A stretch of 55,513 nucleotides of DNA from assembly GCA_023255965.1 (NCBI GenBank), contig JAGDWE010000009.1:1-55513 (forward strand), in the 5' to 3' direction. The stretch is from Desulfurococcales archaeon. Lineage in GTDB: Archaea; Thermoproteota; Thermoprotei_A; Sulfolobales; NBVN01. Within the stretch, counting starts at the first letter, position 1, and every line of letters begins with the position of its first letter. Shown piece after piece: positions 1,766 through 51,676 of this stretch. A program made the position numbers and the translations under genes. The notes beneath the pieces were generated by a model. It searched no databases. It saw nothing but the letters and a program-made list of their open reading frames with translations, and had not been told where the DNA came from.

Positions 1766-3914
1766 TTAATTCCCTCTTAATGACTCTACCATCATAAACA
1801 ACGCCCCCTCTACTACTTAAATATATGCTTAGAAGCCAGCTAAGTACGTTACTCGGTAGAGGTATTTCATCGACATTAATGGAACCATCTATAGAGAGCC
1901 TATCATCAAGGTATTTAATAAAGAGAGATAAATACTTCGCTCTCTTAATGGTAATGTCGATTAGCTTAACATATCCAAGTAACTCACTTAGAGGCTTCAA
2001 TTTACTATTCACTAGGTACTCCACCAATTCCCTGCAAGGTCTATCGATGTAAGTCAGCAATTCATTAACAGCAGCACTTACATCGCTTTTACGTGTTGTG
2101 AGGTAATCTAATTTAATGTCCTTAAGATCGATTAAATTACTCATCTCCAATTCCCTAACATGGACTTCGTTATTAACTGCATCTAAGAACCTAGTCAAAT
2201 TATCTCTCAACGCCATACATACCTCCCTAATATTGAATAACGCTCTAATCGGAGTTACCCCGAACTCTGGCAACACCTTAAATGTTTCACGTAGGTTGTT
2301 TAGAGCGGTTAATACTTCCGAACTACTCATGTCCTTGAACGAATTAATCAACGCCTCTAAATCCCTGCCTAACTTAGTTAAATTGCTGTAGGTGGTCATC
2401 ACCTCATCTTTAAATTCACTATGTACCTTATCGATGAATTCCATGTAGATCTTAATGACGTCGAGCATGACCAAATCCTCAGAGCACTTTATCGGCGCAT
2501 TAACGCTATATGCTTCCTTCCCCAGGACCTCGCGATAATATGTTGATATAACGCTTAATACATTTCCGCATAAGTCGCATAATCTCTTTAGTACTTTCTT
2601 TAATTTAAGTAATGCATCGGGCAACGCCTCTAAATCATTAACTCCCTCTAAGTGTTTAAGCATGTCCGATACATGGCTATCCATCAACCCTGAGGTAAGT
2701 GCGATGCTATTGTATAAATTCTTAACATCATTAACTAAGCTCGCGAATTTATTTAATAAAGAATTCTTAATGCTATTTAAGGACTTACTTAATTCGGTAT
2801 CTAACCTGTTTAATACTTCATTGATGCGTCTAGCTGTTGTCAAGGACTTACTTAATTCCCAACTAATGTTGTCTAATTCCTTAGAGATTTTAGTTAATGA
2901 ATCCTTAACCTCGTTAATGCTTAGCCTCGTTGAGGCGTCGCTAACTTCCTCAATAACTGAGGCATATAAATTTAAATCGCTTCTTAAGCTATTAATCATC
3001 GACATAGCCTTAGATCTCAGTACGTTCGATCTTGTTAGCATTTCATTAAAGGCATTAAGTAGGGCGAATATCGATGCAGTTAAAGGCACAACCACTAAGT
3101 ACCCATAGCGGGTTGCCTGCGGAACTGAAATGACGTTTTGAGAAACTATAACCACGGTTAATACGGCCGCCACGCATAGTACGTACGATGTAGCGGTACG
3201 AATTAGTATGTCCCTAAGCCCATAGGCTTCCGGTAAGAACCTCTTTTTAATGAGTAAGTACATGCAACCTACTAAGGTGTATATAAGTATTATCGACATG
3301 AAGAACATAGCAGGCTTTAATTCAAAGCCAGGTAACATGTAGGTCATATTAAGCATGCTTATATTTGGTACGAACTTGATGTTGGTTATTAGGAGGGGTA
3401 GGATTAGGTAGGGCGCATATATAGACATTAATGATACGGCATATATTATTAAATCCTCTAGACTATTAGACAACACTATATAAGCAGCTATTAAGGCTGG
3501 TGAGGCATAACCCGTAGGATCTAACATAGCCACTGGTAGTGATGCAATTATAAGTATATGGGGCACTATAAAGCCATGTCGCTGTCTCATTACTAAGAAT
3601 GCTGGGATGAAATTAGTTGCCGATATTGCCGCCAATATTAATGAAATGTAGTATGGATCTAATGGACTTCTAAATGCCACTCCTGATACGCTATAACCGA
3701 AGATAAGAGCTACAGATAACGAAATGTACGATAATGCTACACTCTTCCTTATATCTTGGGAGAAAATGTAAAAGTAGGTGATTATCAATATGACAGCATA
3801 TGCTGTGGAAAACAACATTAGCTGAGCCGTACTTATGCCTCCGCTTAATACGTATAGTAGTAGCTCAAACACCAAGACAAATACTATTAGCTGCAGCAGC
3901 TCTATAAATCTCAC
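1752..3914 (-). CDS. Uncharacterised polytopic membrane protein with large cytoplasmic coiled-coil/helical domain
   Basis: 720 aa; N-terminal ~290 aa with multiple hydrophobic TM segments, then ~430 aa of amphipathic heptad-like helices; GTG start overlaps upstream stop (GTGA). Confidence 0.7.
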   Translation of the reverse strand: MRFIELLQLIVFVLVFELLLYVLSGGISTAQLMLFSTAYAVILIITYFYIFSQDIRKSVALSYISLSVALIFGYSVSGVAFRSPLDPYYISLILAAISATNFIPAFLVMRQRHGFIVPHILIIASLPVAMLDPTGYASPALIAAYIVLSNSLEDLIIYAVSLMSIYAPYLILPLLITNIKFVPNISMLNMTYMLPGFELKPAMFFMSIILIYTLVGCMYLLIKKRFLPEAYGLRDILIRTATSYVLCVAAVLTVVIVSQNVISVPQATRYGYLVVVPLTASIFALLNAFNEMLTRSNVLRSKAMSMINSLRSDLNLYASVIEEVSDASTRLSINEVKDSLTKISKELDNISWELSKSLTTARRINEVLNRLDTELSKSLNSIKNSLLNKFASLVNDVKNLYNSIALTSGLMDSHVSDMLKHLEGVNDLEALPDALLKLKKVLKRLCDLCGNVLSVISTYYREVLGKEAYSVNAPIKCSEDLVMLDVIKIYMEFIDKVHSEFKDEVMTTYSNLTKLGRDLEALINSFKDMSSSEVLTALNNLRETFKVLPEFGVTPIRALFNIREVCMALRDNLTRFLDAVNNEVHVRELEMSNLIDLKDIKLDYLTTRKSDVSAAVNELLTYIDRPCRELVEYLVNSKLKPLSELLGYVKLIDITIKRAKYLSLFIKYLDDRLSIDGSINVDEIPLPSNVLSWLLSIYLSSRGGVVYDGRVIKRELSGTS

Positions 3915-42284: not shown

Positions 42285-42851
42285 TTGCTGGGTGCCCTAA
42301 TAATGCACATCATAGTGATTTCCGACACTCACGATAATCTAGCAATGATAGATAGATCTTCATCGTTGATCTTTAAATTAGATCCAGAAATGATTATACA
42401 TTTAGGCGATTACGTATCCCCATTTACGTTGAGGAAGATATTGGATTTAGGTATAAAGTTCTTGGGAGTCTTCGGTAATAATGATGGTGATAAGTTATTA
42501 TTGAAGTTTACCTTGGGAGGTCGAGGCGAGCTTCATGAACCTCCCTACGAATTATCTATTGATGGACTAAAATTCTTATTAATCCATGGATTCGGAAGTC
42601 GTGAGTTAACTAACAAGTTAGTTAACTCCATAGCATCGGGAGGTGAGTACGATTTACTGTTATATGGTCATACTCATATACCTAGACTTGAGAAAGTAGG
42701 GAATACGGTAATATTAAATCCCGGAACTCTATCAGGATACTTAAGTGAGCTCCCGACCTTGGCTTACATCGATACAAGAGAATTAATTCCTAGAATTTTA
42801 AATGCATTAACTGGGGATCAGATTAAATATATCAAAATGCACGATACTTAA
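42285..42851 (+). CDS. MJ0936/YfcE-type metallophosphoesterase
   Basis: VISDTHDNLAMI, IHLGDYVS, GNNDGD, IHGFGSR, LLYGHTHIPRLE, LNPGTLSG. Confidence 0.95.
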   Translation: MLGALIMHIIVISDTHDNLAMIDRSSSLIFKLDPEMIIHLGDYVSPFTLRKILDLGIKFLGVFGNNDGDKLLLKFTLGGRGELHEPPYELSIDGLKFLLIHGFGSRELTNKLVNSIASGGEYDLLLYGHTHIPRLEKVGNTVILNPGTLSGYLSELPTLAYIDTRELIPRILNALTGDQIKYIKMHDT

Positions 42852-44590
42852 ATCTCGTGGTCAAGTTTGATCGGTATAGGTCTGGGGTCGGGCAGTATAC
42901 GTATTAATGCATCCCCCTTACTAAGTAATAACGTATAGTCCTTAATCTCTTCATAAGATATCCTCATATAGTTTGATAATTCCTTCCAGTAAAGGATGTC
43001 CGGCGATGGTAATGCTATAAATAAACCTATATTCTCTATGAGGTCCTTACCTAATTCGCCTAAGTCGTTAAGGGATTGCGTAGCCAGCGCTATTGAGATC
43101 CCATAACCCCTACCTAACTTAATTAACTTAATCAGTAATGGGACCTTATTAAACATGAATTGCCACGCCTCATCAATAACCACCTGAACCCTAGGTATAT
43201 GGCTTTCTCTAACCGTGTTCATATAAAGTAAGTTAATAACGTTAAAGAATGCGGCTACACTTAAATTTAGGTAATCTACGCCTAATGCACTAATATGCGA
43301 TAAATTAATTACCGTAATTGATTCTGAACTGCTTAATGCCTCAATAAGCGGTGGATCACATTCTAGCGTTTCTATGGTGTTAAATATACGCATTAATCTG
43401 TACTGAACATACTCATCATCAATACCTAATGTTAGATCCTTAGCAACCTCCCAGAAATTACTCAAGACCTCGTCCTGGAGTTCTGACGCCTCGCTAAGCA
43501 CCTTAAATAATGACGCCGTTAGCTCTCTGTCACCTTTTAAAATCATCGAATCACTTATTAATTCTGTGAGGAAAGCTGCCCTCAAGTTCTTAGGTATGTA
43601 TTTTAGTAAATCAACTATGCCTAGACCGATACTTACGCCCAGGTCAACTACCCAAGGCTTAAAACCCTTCATCAACAGCCTACCAACATACTCATTTTTA
43701 ACGTCAACGATGAACACCTTAGTTGAGTACGTAAGGTAAGTTCTCAGCAGTAGCGTTATTAAAGTCTCAGTCTTACCTATGCCTGAAGGACCTAGAACTA
43801 ATACGTGCGGGTTAAGGCAATTACCTATATTCCAGAAGATTTCCTCAGATGTAATTATATTATATCCTAGGTAAATTCCCTGGCTTCTTAGGTCAAATCT
43901 AGTCCTCGCATTTATTATGTGAGGGGCGAATAATGCTAATGTTGGTGATGCCATCTTAAAGGAGTACCTTAGCCTAAGTAATTTAGTAAGTATTAAATTA
44001 ACGAGCCTAGGTGGAAAACCTCGAAAAAATATGTGAAGTAATGCCATACCTTCAATGCCCTTTAGCTCAGAAGTAACTATGCCCAAGGATCCTAGGGTCT
44101 TCATAAGTAAATCCGCCCTAGAATTCAACGCGTTCACCACTTCGTCCTCAGAGGTACCACATGCTTCTACAGAGTAAAATACAATTAAATCGAATGGTTG
44201 TAGGCCATGCTTAGCTATTTTATCCCTAAGCTTACTGAGCTTCTCTAATTCCGTCTTAGCCTTAATGTTATTAGGGTTTACCTCAAGATCTATTAATAAG
44301 CTTTGAATCTTCTTATTTAACTCAGAGACAACTTTCTCCTTGCTTAATGGGGTAAATATCGATTTGATCTCTATAGGGAAGCCTAAATTCATGGAATTAA
44401 AGTATGTTTTTAAGTACTTTACTACTTCGTGATCGCTTAAGTCATTTATGGAAGTAACTACCTTATTTACCTTAATTACTTTCCTACCGCATAATTCGTT
44501 ATCTGGCCTACGAAACAGTATTATACCATTATTTAACACCTTAACTTCTTTTAAGCCTAAGTCTAGTACTGAGGCCTTCATATCTACCAA
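42848..44590 (-). CDS. VirB4/HerA-like ATPase
   Basis: HVLVLGPSGIGKTETLITLLLRTYL Walker A, VQVVIDEAWQFM Walker B, ALATQSLNDLG; VirB4-like N-terminal region. Confidence 0.85.
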   Translation of the reverse strand: MVDMKASVLDLGLKEVKVLNNGIILFRRPDNELCGRKVIKVNKVVTSINDLSDHEVVKYLKTYFNSMNLGFPIEIKSIFTPLSKEKVVSELNKKIQSLLIDLEVNPNNIKAKTELEKLSKLRDKIAKHGLQPFDLIVFYSVEACGTSEDEVVNALNSRADLLMKTLGSLGIVTSELKGIEGMALLHIFFRGFPPRLVNLILTKLLRLRYSFKMASPTLALFAPHIINARTRFDLRSQGIYLGYNIITSEEIFWNIGNCLNPHVLVLGPSGIGKTETLITLLLRTYLTYSTKVFIVDVKNEYVGRLLMKGFKPWVVDLGVSIGLGIVDLLKYIPKNLRAAFLTELISDSMILKGDRELTASLFKVLSEASELQDEVLSNFWEVAKDLTLGIDDEYVQYRLMRIFNTIETLECDPPLIEALSSSESITVINLSHISALGVDYLNLSVAAFFNVINLLYMNTVRESHIPRVQVVIDEAWQFMFNKVPLLIKLIKLGRGYGISIALATQSLNDLGELGKDLIENIGLFIALPSPDILYWKELSNYMRISYEEIKDYTLLLSKGDALIRILPDPRPIPIKLDHEI

Positions 44591-46944
44591 TTAATAATTA
44601 GGTTTTTAAGATGTAACGCAACACCGCACGCTAATTCCAGGCACTTTCTAAGTATCTCGCTATATTTAATCACGTATACATCCCTTACCCCGTTACCTAA
44701 TACTATTACCACTATATCATTAACTAAGTTATTTAAATCCAAAGATATCTCCCCAGCAAGCCCCTTAGATACATATGCGGCATTACCCACTAATGCTATT
44801 AAGGTGCTATCGTTCAAGAACTCATATATTAGTTTGATCTTAACTCCTTCAGATGTAATTGAGGGAACTAATAGTAGCTTCCTCAAGGGATTTACTTCGC
44901 TTATCTTTAGCTTAATTTCGTTGTCTACAAACCCATTAACGCACTTACGAATCAAATCCACCTTGACATTTAATTCGTTACTCGACTTAACATCAATAAG
45001 CACCAAATTGCTGCTATTAATTAATTGGCGCTTCACCCAGTGAAATGCGCCAATGCCGTAGCTGAATTCGAGAACTGCTGGAAGGCTACATTCCTCAATC
45101 ACTACGCTATTAATACCATTAAATTTCCTGCCATCTGCGCATGTAACTTGCACGCTAACGGGTATTTCCTTGTTAACAGAGTTGGTGAGGGTAAGCTTAT
45201 ACCTACATTCGTCTATGTACTCTAACGAATATGATATTATGCTGTAGGGATCGTTTATTAGATGTTCAGTAAGGTCTATGGTATATGCGGCGAGTACTTC
45301 GCTGCGATTAATCCATTCATACTCGATGAGCAATTGCAGGGTATTACTAAAAATCCGTAGCGAGTCCTCTAACTCTAACTCATTACGTCCAGGTCTAAGA
45401 ATATGTGAACGGGATTTAACTATTTGATTTCCTTCAACGTAATTTATAATTACCTTTAATTCCTCAGGCAAAGGATTGTATATTGATAGAAAGTACTTGA
45501 TGAGTAAGTTATCATCGCCATTATATAGCCTTCCATTGATTGAGTACTTAACTTCATTAATCTTCAAATCCAGGACTTCAGGCCTATTCACCATCACCTT
45601 AAAGATATTTGAGTACTTCGTTAGCATAAAGTCGATTATAGCCTTAAAACTGATTTCAACGCCCAGCTTAATAGGCTTTATGCTGTATTCCTTAATTAGG
45701 TCGTTATCTAGTGGGTTGCTTAGTAAGATTATAGGACCCTTAATAATTAACTGTGAAGGCTTACTCCACGGCATTATAACTAACCTCGGGTATCCCATGC
45801 TAGAATTAGCTTCTATACCCACGTATAGATCCCTTAAGTCCGTTAGATCGTAAATTAATACCTTACCTTCATACACACATACTAAGGCATCATTGATTAT
45901 ACTGCAATCCATCAATTTATATGATGCCATGTGGGCATTAACACTAAAGAGCTCTAGCGAGTTAGGAGTGCGGAATGCGATGTAGTTGGTTCCTACACTT
46001 CCATCAATAACCCTGAGGTCGCTAATTAACCTCCAAATGTTATTATTGAGTATGTAGGGGCGACTATTTAGTATAATAATCAATTCACCGCCAGGGAGGT
46101 AGCCTACAACCCTTGGACTGACGGCAAATATTAAAGGCCTTAACTCCTTTCCATTGAATTCCATGAGTAGGTTATGTTGCTGACTATGAAGCAAGTATCT
46201 ACCGCCGATATCTACTAACGGGAACGCATTAAGCGGTATCCTTAATAAATTGTTGAAAGATATTAAGTAAGATCCCTCAACGCAATTGATGAATCCAAGG
46301 CAATCACCTACTAGCACATCATTAACTTCATGACACTTACTTAACTCATACAGCTTATGTATATTTAAGTTCTTATGATTCAATAACGCAAATAACTTCC
46401 TATCACGTTTGAAGACGAGCAACGATGTAGTTTTTGATTCATAATATCTAACGTAATCTACCTCGATAGGTGATTTCCTGATCAAAGGTGATATTAGGTA
46501 CTTAGTTCCATTACTCTTCGTTAGAACCAGTGATGGACCATAGAAACCCTCCACGGCAACACCTTTAAATGATTTAAGGATCCATTCCTCCTCATTAGAG
46601 CGTAGGTCGTATAGCGACACGCCATCACTATATACGTTTATCAACATATCATTATATGCGAAGTAAGTCTTAGCGTAAAACCTTAATAATGATCCGTCAC
46701 CGAGAATTACCTTAGATGAGTCGCCTTCATGAAGGATCCATAATCCGCTAATGTATGTAGTTAAATTATCATTAATTACTAGCTTAGGCACTTCGGCAAA
46801 GCTCCTAAGATAAGGCTTAATTATTATCTTATTAAAGCTCATACTCTTTAATAAAAGCCACCTACTAAGCGCTCTATCATCTACGTATTGATTTTTAAAG
46901 TAATCACGTAGATCCAAGTGATGCTTAAGGATAGGGAGCTTCAT
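44584..46944 (-). CDS. Uncharacterised large beta-rich (propeller-like) protein of pilus locus
   Basis: 786 aa, repeated short beta motifs; overlaps start of VirB4-like gene by 7 nt. Confidence 0.65.
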   Translation of the reverse strand: MKLPILKHHLDLRDYFKNQYVDDRALSRWLLLKSMSFNKIIIKPYLRSFAEVPKLVINDNLTTYISGLWILHEGDSSKVILGDGSLLRFYAKTYFAYNDMLINVYSDGVSLYDLRSNEEEWILKSFKGVAVEGFYGPSLVLTKSNGTKYLISPLIRKSPIEVDYVRYYESKTTSLLVFKRDRKLFALLNHKNLNIHKLYELSKCHEVNDVLVGDCLGFINCVEGSYLISFNNLLRIPLNAFPLVDIGGRYLLHSQQHNLLMEFNGKELRPLIFAVSPRVVGYLPGGELIIILNSRPYILNNNIWRLISDLRVIDGSVGTNYIAFRTPNSLELFSVNAHMASYKLMDCSIINDALVCVYEGKVLIYDLTDLRDLYVGIEANSSMGYPRLVIMPWSKPSQLIIKGPIILLSNPLDNDLIKEYSIKPIKLGVEISFKAIIDFMLTKYSNIFKVMVNRPEVLDLKINEVKYSINGRLYNGDDNLLIKYFLSIYNPLPEELKVIINYVEGNQIVKSRSHILRPGRNELELEDSLRIFSNTLQLLIEYEWINRSEVLAAYTIDLTEHLINDPYSIISYSLEYIDECRYKLTLTNSVNKEIPVSVQVTCADGRKFNGINSVVIEECSLPAVLEFSYGIGAFHWVKRQLINSSNLVLIDVKSSNELNVKVDLIRKCVNGFVDNEIKLKISEVNPLRKLLLVPSITSEGVKIKLIYEFLNDSTLIALVGNAAYVSKGLAGEISLDLNNLVNDIVVIVLGNGVRDVYVIKYSEILRKCLELACGVALHLKNLIINW

Positions 46945-46948
46945 AAAA

Positions 46949-48451
46949 TTAACCCAGCATAAGTGCCAGGATTAACATAGCTATACCGGTAATTAGAGTG
47001 TTACCTAAGGAGTCATATAGTGTATAGTCAACGTATAGTGAGTACCAAGTAACAATCACGTAAATTAAGACCATGTAGTTCATTAACTTAACATTGGCTA
47101 AAGTCGCCATGGACGTAAGCAACCACGGCATTATCAATGACATCATCATGAGCGGGAGTAAACTCACTATATAGTGCTTAAAGTCCTCGATCATATCTAG
47201 GGTCAATGTTCTCAAATTAAGCAATTGCTCCTTACTTAGATTGCCGTTGACTAATGACCTAACTATTATGTAGTATGTATACCTTCCTAACCACGATCTG
47301 ATAGCTGGGAGATTATCCTTTAAATTGTTTAGGTTTAACTTAGATCCTAGCCTTCTTAAACTCCTCGATCTACACGTCATTAAAACTTCTTTAAAGCCCT
47401 TTAACGGGTTTACCAGGATATATGGTGTCTCAGCATATAATGAAATTACCTTAGGTAATTCGCTGACTTCTGTAATTACTTCAATAAAATCACGTAAATT
47501 GAGGATGCCGTTTATGATTAGAAGGACTGATGATGTAAGTAACGCGTGCTTGATTACTGGTTGATCAAGCATAGACAGCGATAGGGGGATGATAAATAGT
47601 GTTACCATGTATATGACTATGTTTTTTAGCTTAAAAATGATGCTATTATTATTTACTAATGTCTTAAGATGTAACGTCTTCCCGGGCATGAAAATCAATA
47701 TTGGTATGATGGTGGCTAAAAAGAATATTGATGGAACCGCTTCGATAGCTCCTGAAATTATTGATAAGGATACCATTAGTGAAGGTAAGTAACTTAACAG
47801 TACTCCGGCTATTAGCGAAATTGTAGTCCTTAATTGAATTGATGTCTTAGCATCGCCTCTTAATTTATGTAGCAATTCGTTAGACGTATTAAGTAGCCAT
47901 GCATTAACCACTCCCTTAGATAGCGCTAACACATAATCACTAAGTAACCTATTGACGTACTTCGAAGCTGAGTACTTAATATACGTATTTATAGCCTCCG
48001 TCACTGTTAAGAAGCTTCTAAATACCCTTAATCTCAGCCCCTCAACAACCAATTCCTTAAATACGTGCTCCCATCCGCTCAATTCGCATAGATCGTTTAC
48101 TAACTCCGTTGAATAAGTGTATATAGCTGCCTCTGAGATTATGAAGTAAGCTAATTCCTCCTCCACCTTCTTCCTCCTTACCCTCACAATATAGCTGTAG
48201 CTTAGGTAAGGAAGCATCATGGATGTTAGGGCTGCGGAAGGTATCGCAAGTGCGGTTAATGTTACATAGGTCGCTACTGTAAATCCAAGCATATAGTTTA
48301 ACACGATAATTAACACAGTGACTACTAGTACTGAGGCAGTGATGTATTTGAGAAGCATCGATTTTAAGTCTCTAACACCGGCCCTTGTTAACCCAGCTTT
48401 AACTCTAAGATCCTGTATTAACTCTAGGTATTTATTAATGTAATTCCTCAT
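46949..48451 (-). CDS. TadC/FlaJ-type type IV pilus platform protein
   Basis: 500 aa, two T2SSF-like halves with TM clusters; immediately downstream of TadA-like ATPase. Confidence 0.8.
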   Translation of the reverse strand: MRNYINKYLELIQDLRVKAGLTRAGVRDLKSMLLKYITASVLVVTVLIIVLNYMLGFTVATYVTLTALAIPSAALTSMMLPYLSYSYIVRVRRKKVEEELAYFIISEAAIYTYSTELVNDLCELSGWEHVFKELVVEGLRLRVFRSFLTVTEAINTYIKYSASKYVNRLLSDYVLALSKGVVNAWLLNTSNELLHKLRGDAKTSIQLRTTISLIAGVLLSYLPSLMVSLSIISGAIEAVPSIFFLATIIPILIFMPGKTLHLKTLVNNNSIIFKLKNIVIYMVTLFIIPLSLSMLDQPVIKHALLTSSVLLIINGILNLRDFIEVITEVSELPKVISLYAETPYILVNPLKGFKEVLMTCRSRSLRRLGSKLNLNNLKDNLPAIRSWLGRYTYYIIVRSLVNGNLSKEQLLNLRTLTLDMIEDFKHYIVSLLPLMMMSLIMPWLLTSMATLANVKLMNYMVLIYVIVTWYSLYVDYTLYDSLGNTLITGIAMLILALMLG

Positions 48452-48452
48452 A

Positions 48453-51116
48453 TCAAATCCTATTTGAAGTTATATCCTTATTAGGAGAATTAAAACCCCT
48501 GACTTTAACGCTCTTCCTAAATAACTCCTCCTCTGTAACTTCATCACCAAACGTGTATAGATTATTTAATACTATACTGTCAGTTTCCTCATCATATATC
48601 GGTTCATCAACGCTAACTACAGCTCTTTTAAGGCTCTTACCATGGTATACGTAATTAACTGTTATGAAGGTCCAGAACATGCTTACCTGATACGGGCTTA
48701 AATTTATCGGAGGCCCTGTAAGCCTCATCAATGCCTCCTTAACGTTCCCCCCATGAAATGTTGTATTATGTGTTAGTATGAGGGACCCTGATATAGCATA
48801 GATATGTGTTTCAGGTACCTCAATATCGTAGAGAAGGCTTTCCTTCTCCACTACTTCTACCTTCTTCACCCTTAATAGCAGGAGTTTTCCTCTCAACCCT
48901 TTATCATGCTTTGGCTTTCCATGCATCTTAATGTTCGCATAATTCATGTAAGCGATATTATCTACATTATCTAGGAGGTCGAGGATTTCAAATGCCTTTT
49001 GCTCGTATTCACCTCCACGGATATGAATGAGGTATGTAGCACCTCCGTTTACAGAGCATCCACGTTTCCTCAGACGAACATCTGCAACTATTCCTAAGCT
49101 CCTTAATATGAGATATAAGCTTTCAGCAAGCCTTCTATTAGCGGTCTTTACTGTAATACCACTGCCCTTCCTTGTACGAATGGCACCTGCATCGAAATAT
49201 CCCTCAATTATACCTACTCTAAAATCCTCAGGCGCTCTAAGAGCTAAATCCAGCGGTACACATCTATTGTGCTCATGTACCCTACCATCCAGTAACCCCA
49301 CCAGGAACCTCGTGAAAATCGATGAGCGAATGAGAATGCGAGCAACATTACCACTATCATAGATAGAGATCGCGTCCTTTAGCCCTAGTTCCTCCAAGGC
49401 ATGTAATATCTTCTTTTGCTTCCATGAAGCGTCTACACTCATATTGAACGTTACTCTGACGGGGATCCCATACTCGTCATGCTCTACATCACCACTTACG
49501 AGGAAGGACCCTATGAGATAGCCTAGATCCTTGCTTAACTTTACTATATATGGGAAGGGGGGTTCTTGACTAGATGTGTTAGCATGGATTACGAGGTCCT
49601 TAAGCTTACGCCCATCGTATTCCCTCCCCCTTAAGATCGCATCTGCATCCTTAGCAGACATGCATTTACTTTGAGTCTCACTTTTATCACAGATTACCAA
49701 AGATCTCTTGTAGTCGTCTTCTAAGTAATCCATTGTTATTACGTAGCGCATAGTTGTCGGGCCAAGCTGTGGAGGATGAGGAAGTGATATGAGTATGTCC
49801 CCAGGTTTAAGATCTTTTGCAGGTTTTGTAATAGATTTCCCTTTCTCGTACACTATGACCGAATGTTCCTCATGAACTTCGTGAACAACTCCCCCACTAA
49901 CATGTATTCTTACAAACCTACGGCTACCGTCCTTGATTATCGCCCTCGATATAGGTACCCATCTGGCAACTCCTTTCACGTCCCCAGTAACAACCTCCAC
50001 GTGTTTATACTTCCCATTAATCACACCCTCAACTACGTCGCCAATTTCATATAGATCTACTTTACCATCGACTTTTGCAAGGACAAGCTGATCCTTAGGT
50101 AAGCATAGTCCGCCTAAGCCCATGTTCATTGCTTGAACTAATACCTGAGCTTCGCTCCCCCTAGTCTCACCTATTACTATGTATCTACTTACCGATGCCC
50201 TTAGTGCTGCCTTAGATAACGTAAATTGATCTAAGAAATTATTTGGGACGGTTGATGTAGGCACTATATACCTAACCCAGTTACTCTTAGGCGGTGGATC
50301 GATCTCAGGAGTGTCTTCTATAATGACTATCTTCCAGGTCTGTGGTATGCATTCGTACAGTATCGCCCTAAGTAATGTCGTTTTACCCGAGCCCGGAGGC
50401 CCTAAAATTACTATACTACCCCTCGATCTGATCACGGCATTTATGTACTTAACTAAAGCTCTAGGCAAAGTTCCCTCACTAATTAACGAATTTAAACTTA
50501 TGCCGCCATAGTTTCTCTTCTTCCTAATGGTTATCTCAGGTCTATCTAAGCTTACCTCAGGTAGCACTAAGTGCACCCTATGACCTCCATCTACATCAGG
50601 GAGGTTGGCATCCAAAATGGGGTATGACTTAGATATTATCTTACCCGCCTTCTCCGAAAATAAATTGATATACCTAAGGACTTCCTCAACATCGCTTAAA
50701 ACTATATTCGTAGGTATATAATCAGCCTCCGGATCAATTCTTAAGACCTTACTATGTCTAACCCATATAGGGCCGGGACCTACGACTGTTATATCTTCAA
50801 TGTAGGGATCATCAATTAATACTTGGAACTTCTTATACTTAAGTTCCTTCCTTAGTACATAAAGGACGCTTATGAAATCTTCATTACTAATGCCCAAGAC
50901 CTCTGAAACAGCCTTAGATAATATTAAATCATTTAATTCGCAATTATATGGTATTGAGGTAAGTATCTTATCCATATTCCTAAGGACTAACTCCTCAACG
51001 TCCTTGCCCAGGAATTCCTCAACAACGTATTGATAGCTATTACCGTACTTAATTATCTTGATGTTAGATATGCCTACATTATATTCATCAATAACCTCAG
51101 CCTTGAGCCCGGTCAT
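48453..51116 (-). CDS. TadA/FlaI/GspE-type secretion ATPase interrupted by an intein
   Basis: VILGPPGSGKTTLLRAI Walker A, IIEDTPEIDPP, YIVIGETRGSEAQVLVQAMNMGLGGL | intein | TTFHGGNVKEALMRL. Confidence 0.95.
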   Translation of the reverse strand: MTGLKAEVIDEYNVGISNIKIIKYGNSYQYVVEEFLGKDVEELVLRNMDKILTSIPYNCELNDLILSKAVSEVLGISNEDFISVLYVLRKELKYKKFQVLIDDPYIEDITVVGPGPIWVRHSKVLRIDPEADYIPTNIVLSDVEEVLRYINLFSEKAGKIISKSYPILDANLPDVDGGHRVHLVLPEVSLDRPEITIRKKRNYGGISLNSLISEGTLPRALVKYINAVIRSRGSIVILGPPGSGKTTLLRAILYECIPQTWKIVIIEDTPEIDPPPKSNWVRYIVPTSTVPNNFLDQFTLSKAALRASVSRYIVIGETRGSEAQVLVQAMNMGLGGLCLPKDQLVLAKVDGKVDLYEIGDVVEGVINGKYKHVEVVTGDVKGVARWVPISRAIIKDGSRRFVRIHVSGGVVHEVHEEHSVIVYEKGKSITKPAKDLKPGDILISLPHPPQLGPTTMRYVITMDYLEDDYKRSLVICDKSETQSKCMSAKDADAILRGREYDGRKLKDLVIHANTSSQEPPFPYIVKLSKDLGYLIGSFLVSGDVEHDEYGIPVRVTFNMSVDASWKQKKILHALEELGLKDAISIYDSGNVARILIRSSIFTRFLVGLLDGRVHEHNRCVPLDLALRAPEDFRVGIIEGYFDAGAIRTRKGSGITVKTANRRLAESLYLILRSLGIVADVRLRKRGCSVNGGATYLIHIRGGEYEQKAFEILDLLDNVDNIAYMNYANIKMHGKPKHDKGLRGKLLLLRVKKVEVVEKESLLYDIEVPETHIYAISGSLILTHNTTFHGGNVKEALMRLTGPPINLSPYQVSMFWTFITVNYVYHGKSLKRAVVSVDEPIYDEETDSIVLNNLYTFGDEVTEEELFRKSVKVRGFNSPNKDITSNRI
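48765..50105 (-). other. Intein (aa 338-784 of host ORF, ~447 aa) with degenerate LAGLIDADG endonuclease domain
   Basis: Starts CLPKDQLVLAKVDGK, block B-like HEVHEEHSVIVY, ends YDIEVPETHIYAISGSLILTHN followed by +1 Thr. Confidence 0.95.
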
Positions 51117-51151
51117 AATCCCACTAAAAAATAGTGTTTATTTTTACCCTG

Positions 51152-51676
51152 CTACTTAACTACCACTTTGACTACGTAATTATTACCTAAAATGTCCTTA
51201 ACCTCAAGTATTACGACGGAGATCCTTGAAGTGATGTTAGGTAGTGTTATAAGCAACGTAGCTTCATCACCTGGGCTTAGTATTGATTTACCTGAGATTC
51301 TCGTTGCTGAAGTATTGATGGTGCCACCGTCTTCAAATACTATTGTGGCATTGACATGATTGCTTAGATCTAAGTCCTTACCTCCTTTATTAGCTAAGCT
51401 CAGCACCATGGTTACGTTGTTATTTCTGTAATCCATAGCCACGATGTTTGCAACTAATTCGGGCGCTACCGAATATCCATATGCCTTACTTACTTGTGAG
51501 GATAGCCAATTTTGAACTGCAAGGGTTACTGGAATAGCTACTGCTATTAGAGCAAGAACTATTATCAGGTCACTCACACCTAACCTGATTTTGTTGACTG
51601 AGCATTTGCGGGCTACCATATTAACACCCCCGTTACTTTCAATAAACTTATAAAGTGTTCTTGAATCCACAACCAA
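51152..51676 (-). CDS. Type IV pilin/archaellin-like protein with class III signal peptide; likely start at 51619
   Basis: MVARKCSVNKIRLG-VSDLIIVLALIAVAIPVTLAVQNWL prepilin-like N-terminus. Confidence 0.75.
   Translation of the reverse strand: MVVDSRTLYKFIESNGGVNMVARKCSVNKIRLGVSDLIIVLALIAVAIPVTLAVQNWLSSQVSKAYGYSVAPELVANIVAMDYRNNNVTMVLSLANKGGKDLDLSNHVNATIVFEDGGTINTSATRISGKSILSPGDEATLLITLPNITSRISVVILEVKDILGNNYVVKVVVK

Follow-up and report, generated by a model that had tools for sequence, protein, structure and literature searches.

A degenerate LAGLIDADG endonuclease domain retained in the inteins of an archaeal T2SSE-type ATPase

According to the homing-cycle model, the endonuclease of an intein decays and is then deleted once the element is fixed. 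A T2SSE-type ATPase gene of a Desulfurococcales archaeon raises the question of why an intein whose LAGLIDADG endonuclease appears to be dead has kept the domain. The gene lies in the window, that is, the whole stretch of 55,513 nucleotides analyzed here, which belongs to an incomplete genome assembly (1.22 Mb, 77 contigs, 79.9% complete). Dead intein endonucleases are already known, as in PhoVMA, the VMA-b intein of Pyrococcus horikoshii; what is new in this case is the lineage-wide, shared retention of one.

The intein and its host ATPase

A sequence-only reading had placed an intein of about 447 aa in this gene, with the junctions GLGGL/C...HN/TTFHGG (slashes mark splice or insertion points throughout), and both its coordinates and its junctions proved exact (Table 1). 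Three Pfam profiles score over their curated cut-offs, namely Intein_splicing (38.0 bits, cut-off 35.8), LAGLIDADG_3 (25.4, cut-off 22.5) and Hom_end (22.8, cut-off 21.1). In addition, an AlphaFold2 model based on an 11-row alignment (mean pLDDT 83.6, pTM 0.86) gave a confident, whole HINT fold together with a two-helix LAGLIDADG fold, the helices of which span residues 192-204 and 293-307. The model matches many inteins with Z of about 16 to 33, and Foldseek recovered I-DmoI and intein endonucleases. Among solved structures, VIA-align placed TliVMA, the VMA intein of Thermococcus litoralis, nearest (7qsu, 340 residues, Z 33.3); 2cw7, an intein endonuclease, scored 29.8, and PhoVMA, which is inactive, 28.0 (7QST, 315 residues, 17% identity). 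The profile scores, the model and these structural matches rule out a chance resemblance.

Table 1. Positions in the window of the ATPase precursor, its intein and their parts
Feature	Position	Strand	Basis
T2SSE-type (FlaI/TadA-like) ATPase precursor with intein, 887 aa	48453..51116	-	Pfam T2SSE; FlaI chain 4ii7; intein-free orthologs
N-extein, C-terminal end GLGGL	50106..51116	-	ORF translation and alignment
Intein, 447 aa, Cys1 to Asn447 (ORF residues 338-784)	48765..50105	-	Pfam, alignment, AlphaFold2 model
N-terminal splicing half (intein residues 1-110), Cys1 and block B HEVHEEH (His75/78/81 at 49863-49883)	49776..50105	-	Alignments; model strands
Variable linker (residues 111-186)	49548..49775	-	Linker-length comparison
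Degenerate LAGLIDADG domain (residues 187-376)	48978..49547	-	LAGLIDADG_3 over cut-off; model with both helices; dN/dS <1 in relatives
Ser204 codon at the catalytic Asp position, LAGLIDADG block C	49494..49496	-	Alignment
Block E GYFDAG (Gly302-Gly307), catalytic Asp column between Ala306 and Gly307 missing	49185..49202	-	Alignment
C-terminal splicing half (residues 408-447), blocks F and G, His446-Asn447	48765..48884	-	TIGR01443; alignment
C-extein, starting with +1 Thr (TTFHGG), stop codon included	48453..48764	-	ORF translation and alignment

The residues expected of the splicing blocks are all present, as that reading had listed them. Cys1, the block A nucleophile, is invariant among all aligned relatives, and blocks F and G read LYDIEVPETHIYAISG and LTHN/T, with the penultimate His, the terminal Asn and the +1 Thr in place (TIGR01443, 18.5 bits, cut-off 15.6). 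In block B, the Thr of the TxxH motif is usual, not obligatory; here His81 is present and His78 occupies the usual Thr position. The HEEH reported earlier is thus right in its letters, but it is ruled out as a sign of decay, as HE[VL]H[ED]xH is found in every one of the 15 aligned relatives, including those with intact catalytic Asp, which makes HExH a trait of the intein family. Judged from its sequence, the element is a complete class-1-type intein, and its intact blocks make it likely to be competent for splicing.

The ATPase portions of the 887-aa ORF (residues 1-337 and 785-887) match Pfam T2SSE (49.7 bits) and the FlaI structure 4ii7 (E 3.6e-33), in agreement with the TadA/FlaI-like host that had been proposed. 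Against NF058587, the NCBIfam model of the ArlI/FlaI archaellum motor, the host scores 176 bits, with a cut-off of 550, in a match that is split by the intein although the N-extein alone spans most of the ATPase core; the host is an archaeal T2SSE relative and, by this model, not the archaellum motor itself. The insertion is in frame at GLGGL/TTFH in the His-box, and three intein-free orthologs from the same archaeal family (G003, G005 and G013; 71-73% identity) read GLGGLTTFHGG without a break. The ATPase gene belongs to a same-strand cluster (42848-51676) that also encodes a 500-aa hydrophobic protein, which is TadC-like by position only, a 786-aa protein, neither of them with a Pfam match, and a HerA/TraG-like ATPase (DUF87, AAA_10). 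The cluster combines parts of pilus type with others of conjugation type.

Similarly, KlbA inteins interrupt a T2SSE-type ATPase just before the conserved TxH, and a comparison of the two sites had been called for. The Methanocaldococcus jannaschii example (MJ0781, 2JMZ), which reads MNTGHDG/ALAY...AVSA/SSGTLHH with an engineered C-terminal junction, is a mini-intein with Ala1, whereas the window intein has Cys1 and a domain derived from a homing endonuclease (HEN). Since GLGGL/TTFH lies two residues nearer to the conserved His than GHDG/..SGTLH of KlbA, the two are different sites, and a KlbA allele is ruled out both by this offset and by Cys rather than Ala at residue 1. The locus adds a T2SSE His-box intein site distinct from the KlbA site, and a search of the open-licence literature found neither this site nor this group of ATPases described as carrying inteins.

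Loss of the catalytic residues in same-site inteins

The alignment supports the combination, recognized in the sequence-only reading, of intact splicing blocks with a LAGLIDADG domain that lacks both catalytic Asp, while revising how one of them was lost. Block C (LGYLIGSFLVSGD) has Ser204 in place of the Asp of active relatives (FFLADG, MFLADG), as had been stated. Block E had been read as a replacement by Gly; it aligns as GYFDA-GAI with GYWDGDGS of active relatives, and the catalytic column was lost by a one-residue deletion, not by a simple Gly substitution. We also examined whether acidic residues might serve in a shifted register. Gly195, Gly199, Gly205 and Gly302, which by the LAGLIDADG pattern pack the two helices, are invariant in 15 of the 15 aligned inteins and therefore fix the register of the alignment. 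Of the neighboring acids, D206 is private to the window intein, the position being without Asp in every other member, and D305 is the ordinary non-catalytic first Asp of DxD, found in four of the five active relatives. A catalytic role of either acid in a new register was thus rejected, and none of eight same-site inteins has an acidic residue at the catalytic position of either helix end. From these residues we infer that the window intein would be unable to cut DNA or to home.

A survey of alleles showed that this state is shared. Relatives, family, order and class, as well as named genomes, were searched for inteins in T2SSE ATPases; the matching loci with public names are from metagenome-assembled genomes labelled Desulfurococcales, Desulfurococcaceae, Sulfolobales, Thermoprotei or Thermoproteota, and most genomes compared are draft assemblies. 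The window and seven relatives have an intein at this position of the same ATPase (group A); six of the relatives are species of one genus, g7, in the same family (G006, G014, G019, G023, G026 and G029), and the seventh is a species of another family (G073). Both catalytic Asp are absent in eight of eight, with S, S, T, T, G, A, S and C in block C and a gap, L, L, V, S, S, L and K in block E, and the alignment shows no alternative acid in block C common to the seven members other than the window. The total length varies from 370 to 447 aa; the domain comprises 172-190 residues, with both helices and all packing glycines in every member, and no mini-intein is found among the eight. The dead state is thus common to all same-site inteins and is old within one genus.

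A second group of inteins (group B) is found in a paralogous ATPase, at the corresponding site GHGG[LV]/[ST]T.H. Five of its members (G058, G012, G142, G145 and G146) resemble the window intein in their CLPxDQL start, HEVHExH block B and LTHN end (39-40% identity for G058 and G012) and differ in their intact LADG and GDG motifs and a longer linker (95-101 aa between splicing half and endonuclease, against 36-76 aa in group A). By eye, a segment of the group B linker looks like a helix-turn-helix (HTH), and one copy gives a weak Pfam hit to a YdaS-type HTH; in this respect the linker resembles the accessory domain of TliVMA (PMC8966425). Both Asp are intact in these five full-length inteins, so the loss in group A is not a family-wide variant of the motif. 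In a tree of full-length inteins, group A is set apart by a branch with support of 98/99. The sequence of a further group B intein, in G018, stops after block C, in which the Asp is present. The paralogous ATPase of G006 carries a degenerate copy, and that of G008 a 173-aa mini-intein without endonuclease (L019:1321-1839); other degenerate copies were found in another ATPase (G165) and in a class-level relative (G218). One intein family thus provides a natural experiment, with endonucleases active, dead and deleted at equivalent sites of paralogous ATPases.

Inheritance, selection and the fate of the dead domain

Within genus g7, intein branching is nearly that of the hosts, with G026 outermost and G019 grouped with G023, although some branches have modest support; the host tree was built from ORFs with Walker A and GETRG motifs, leaving out G043 and G053. 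Between G019 and G023, 4-fold sites have diverged by 0.40 (extein), 0.46 (splicing halves) and 0.29 (dead domain). The shared synonymous clock and the nearly matching trees point to vertical inheritance of the dead intein in this genus. The G+C content of each intein tracks its host (39 and 43% in the window, 62 and 67% in G029), in line with long residence. Between the three intein-bearing host lineages (window, g7 and G073), third positions are near saturation, and the intein may have been gained once, long ago, and then lost in places, or gained several times.

As most pairs are near saturation, the dN/dS estimate for group A comes from the one pair G019-G023, which has the least saturated synonymous sites in the group; dN/dS is 0.13 in the extein, 0.15 in the splicing halves and 0.44 in the dead domain (bootstrap CI 0.29-0.62); active domains gave 0.13 (G146-G145) and 0.11 (G142-G146). 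For the dead domain, the ratio of changes at codon positions 1 and 2 to those at position 3 is 0.70, and for active domains 0.53; the poorly aligned stretch near residues 377-407, which served as a rough internal yardstick, gave 0.89-1.03. By these sequence comparisons, purifying selection on the dead domain has weakened but persists. At matched splicing-domain identity (0.61 dead, 0.60 active), helix identity is 0.47 in dead versus 0.53 in active forms, and strand identity 0.25 versus 0.45. None of the five Asp columns shared by all active forms is preserved in group A, whereas 5 of the 11 Gly columns of this kind are preserved throughout. The DNA-binding saddle of LAGLIDADG enzymes is built from the strands; their divergence, with the helices kept, indicates that cleavage and DNA contact seem to have been lost and the core retained. 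The dead form is, in short, lineage-shared, vertically inherited in one genus and still under selection.

To account for this retention, we propose, with slightly more belief than doubt, that the domain is a pseudo-endonuclease turned splicing scaffold, which became so by a ratchet-like neutral path to dependence. The intein in the His-box of this T2SSE (pilus/secretion) ATPase would descend from an endonuclease-bearing intein; the sequences show that its endonuclease lost both metal-binding Asp, that its DNA-facing strands diverged and that its linker shrank. Splicing would proceed by the class 1 steps, with an acyl shift at Cys1, transfer to the +1 Thr and cyclisation of Asn447, and the precursor would self-splice to yield a 440-aa ATPase, with no homing. 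The two splicing halves, distant in sequence, may have come to rely on the dead domain as a folded bridge, and if they need this scaffold, the domain could not be deleted without harm to the ATPase. How an endonuclease may become necessary for splicing through neutral steps has been set out for introns and maturases (PMC1654191), and the proposed dependence on a dead scaffold is now directly testable.

The nearest precedents give a divided answer. PhoVMA, which like the window intein is archaeal and has the full HINT-HEN fold, lost both LAGLIDADG Asp in the same manner, with block E shortened by deletion, and is inactive (PMC8966425). Its host is the V-ATPase A subunit, interrupted at the P-loop, rather than a T2SSE ATPase, and it is a degenerate copy beside active VMA orthologs that splices without its HEN (PMC8966425), which by analogy would speak against a scaffold. 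In contrast, all eight same-site inteins described here are dead and their domain is under purifying selection. Deletion of the HEN impairs splicing in some inteins, and that of TliVMA falls strongly (PMC8966425); TliVMA (7QSU/7QSS) is the best structural match, but it has an active endonuclease, an HTH-like accessory domain and another host. As TliVMA is impaired without its HEN and PhoVMA is not, dependence is plausible but not certain. Moreover, the mini-intein of G008 at the equivalent paralogous site indicates that some members of the family can do without the domain; dependence, if real, would be lineage-specific.

Ordinary decay within the homing cycle has a substantial chance of being the whole explanation, though short of an even one. 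The endonuclease would have died after fixation and the domain would be drifting to deletion, the remaining constraint being to fold without blocking splicing; a dN/dS below 1 is also expected if the domain must merely fold without spoiling the precursor, and slow decay limited in this way fits much of the evidence for a scaffold. The model is standard (PMC1654191, PMC8966425), the dead domain evolves faster than its active relatives, several members of group A have a shorter linker and domain, and the mini-intein and degenerate copies of the paralogous gene could represent the next stages. What decay explains less readily is that a sizeable domain with both helices and all packing glycines persists in every group A member, in six species of one genus and two other lineages, with no mini-intein among the eight.

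A new activity, such as binding DNA without cutting it or making splicing depend on temperature or on contact with the ATPase, would also suit a catalytically dead fold that is still under purifying selection. The insertion in the conserved His-box, beside the nucleotide-binding core, should leave the unspliced protein inactive and would provide a setting for it. An intein-extein partnership of RadA is known in hyperthermophiles (PMC5790916). However, conservation is lowest in the very strands that would contact DNA (identity 0.25) and no conserved new surface motif was seen in the domain, and we regard this explanation as improbable. That the endonuclease is still active through D206 and D305, which adjoin the two lost positions in the window copy, is scarcely credible given the glycine-fixed register, the uniqueness of D206, the non-catalytic nature of D305 and the want of a common alternative acid in block C of the other members.

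The scaffold that we favor may be extended further, namely that the dead domain is obligatory for splicing across the archaeal lineage and that the intein is permanently locked into the motor ATPase, possibly with a regulatory role; this stronger form seems doubtful. If true, it would be the protein-splicing counterpart of intron maturases derived from LAGLIDADG endonucleases.

Other inteins in the genome and in related ATPases

Two further inteins were noted in the same genome (L004, G000:C37, and L001, G000:C12): an MCM intein of 452 aa, the LAGLIDADG motifs of which look degenerate (LYINGHI, IYIVSGG), and a RadA mini-intein. Of the three inteins found in the genome, the dead one of the window included, none appears capable of homing. 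As to a viral source, a single scan of viral contigs using alignment A1 returned no relative.

In the class-level relative G218 (L110), a degenerate intein at the same site ends in SN/C instead of HN/T, with a +1 Cys and no penultimate His. In addition, the paralogous ATPase contains, at L014 (junction at 2878-2895, minus strand), L016, L092 and L094, two inteins only six extein residues apart (TGHGG[LV]), as in LLHN/TGHGGL/CLPRDQ, and both sit just upstream of the conserved TxH of the ATPase. ATPase genes of the same group at L093, L110 and L020 also carry Walker A inteins (NHN/TTLLN, VHN/TTLLN and LHN/TSTLN), so that the T2SSE ATPases of these archaea have three intein sites clustered around their nucleotide-binding core.
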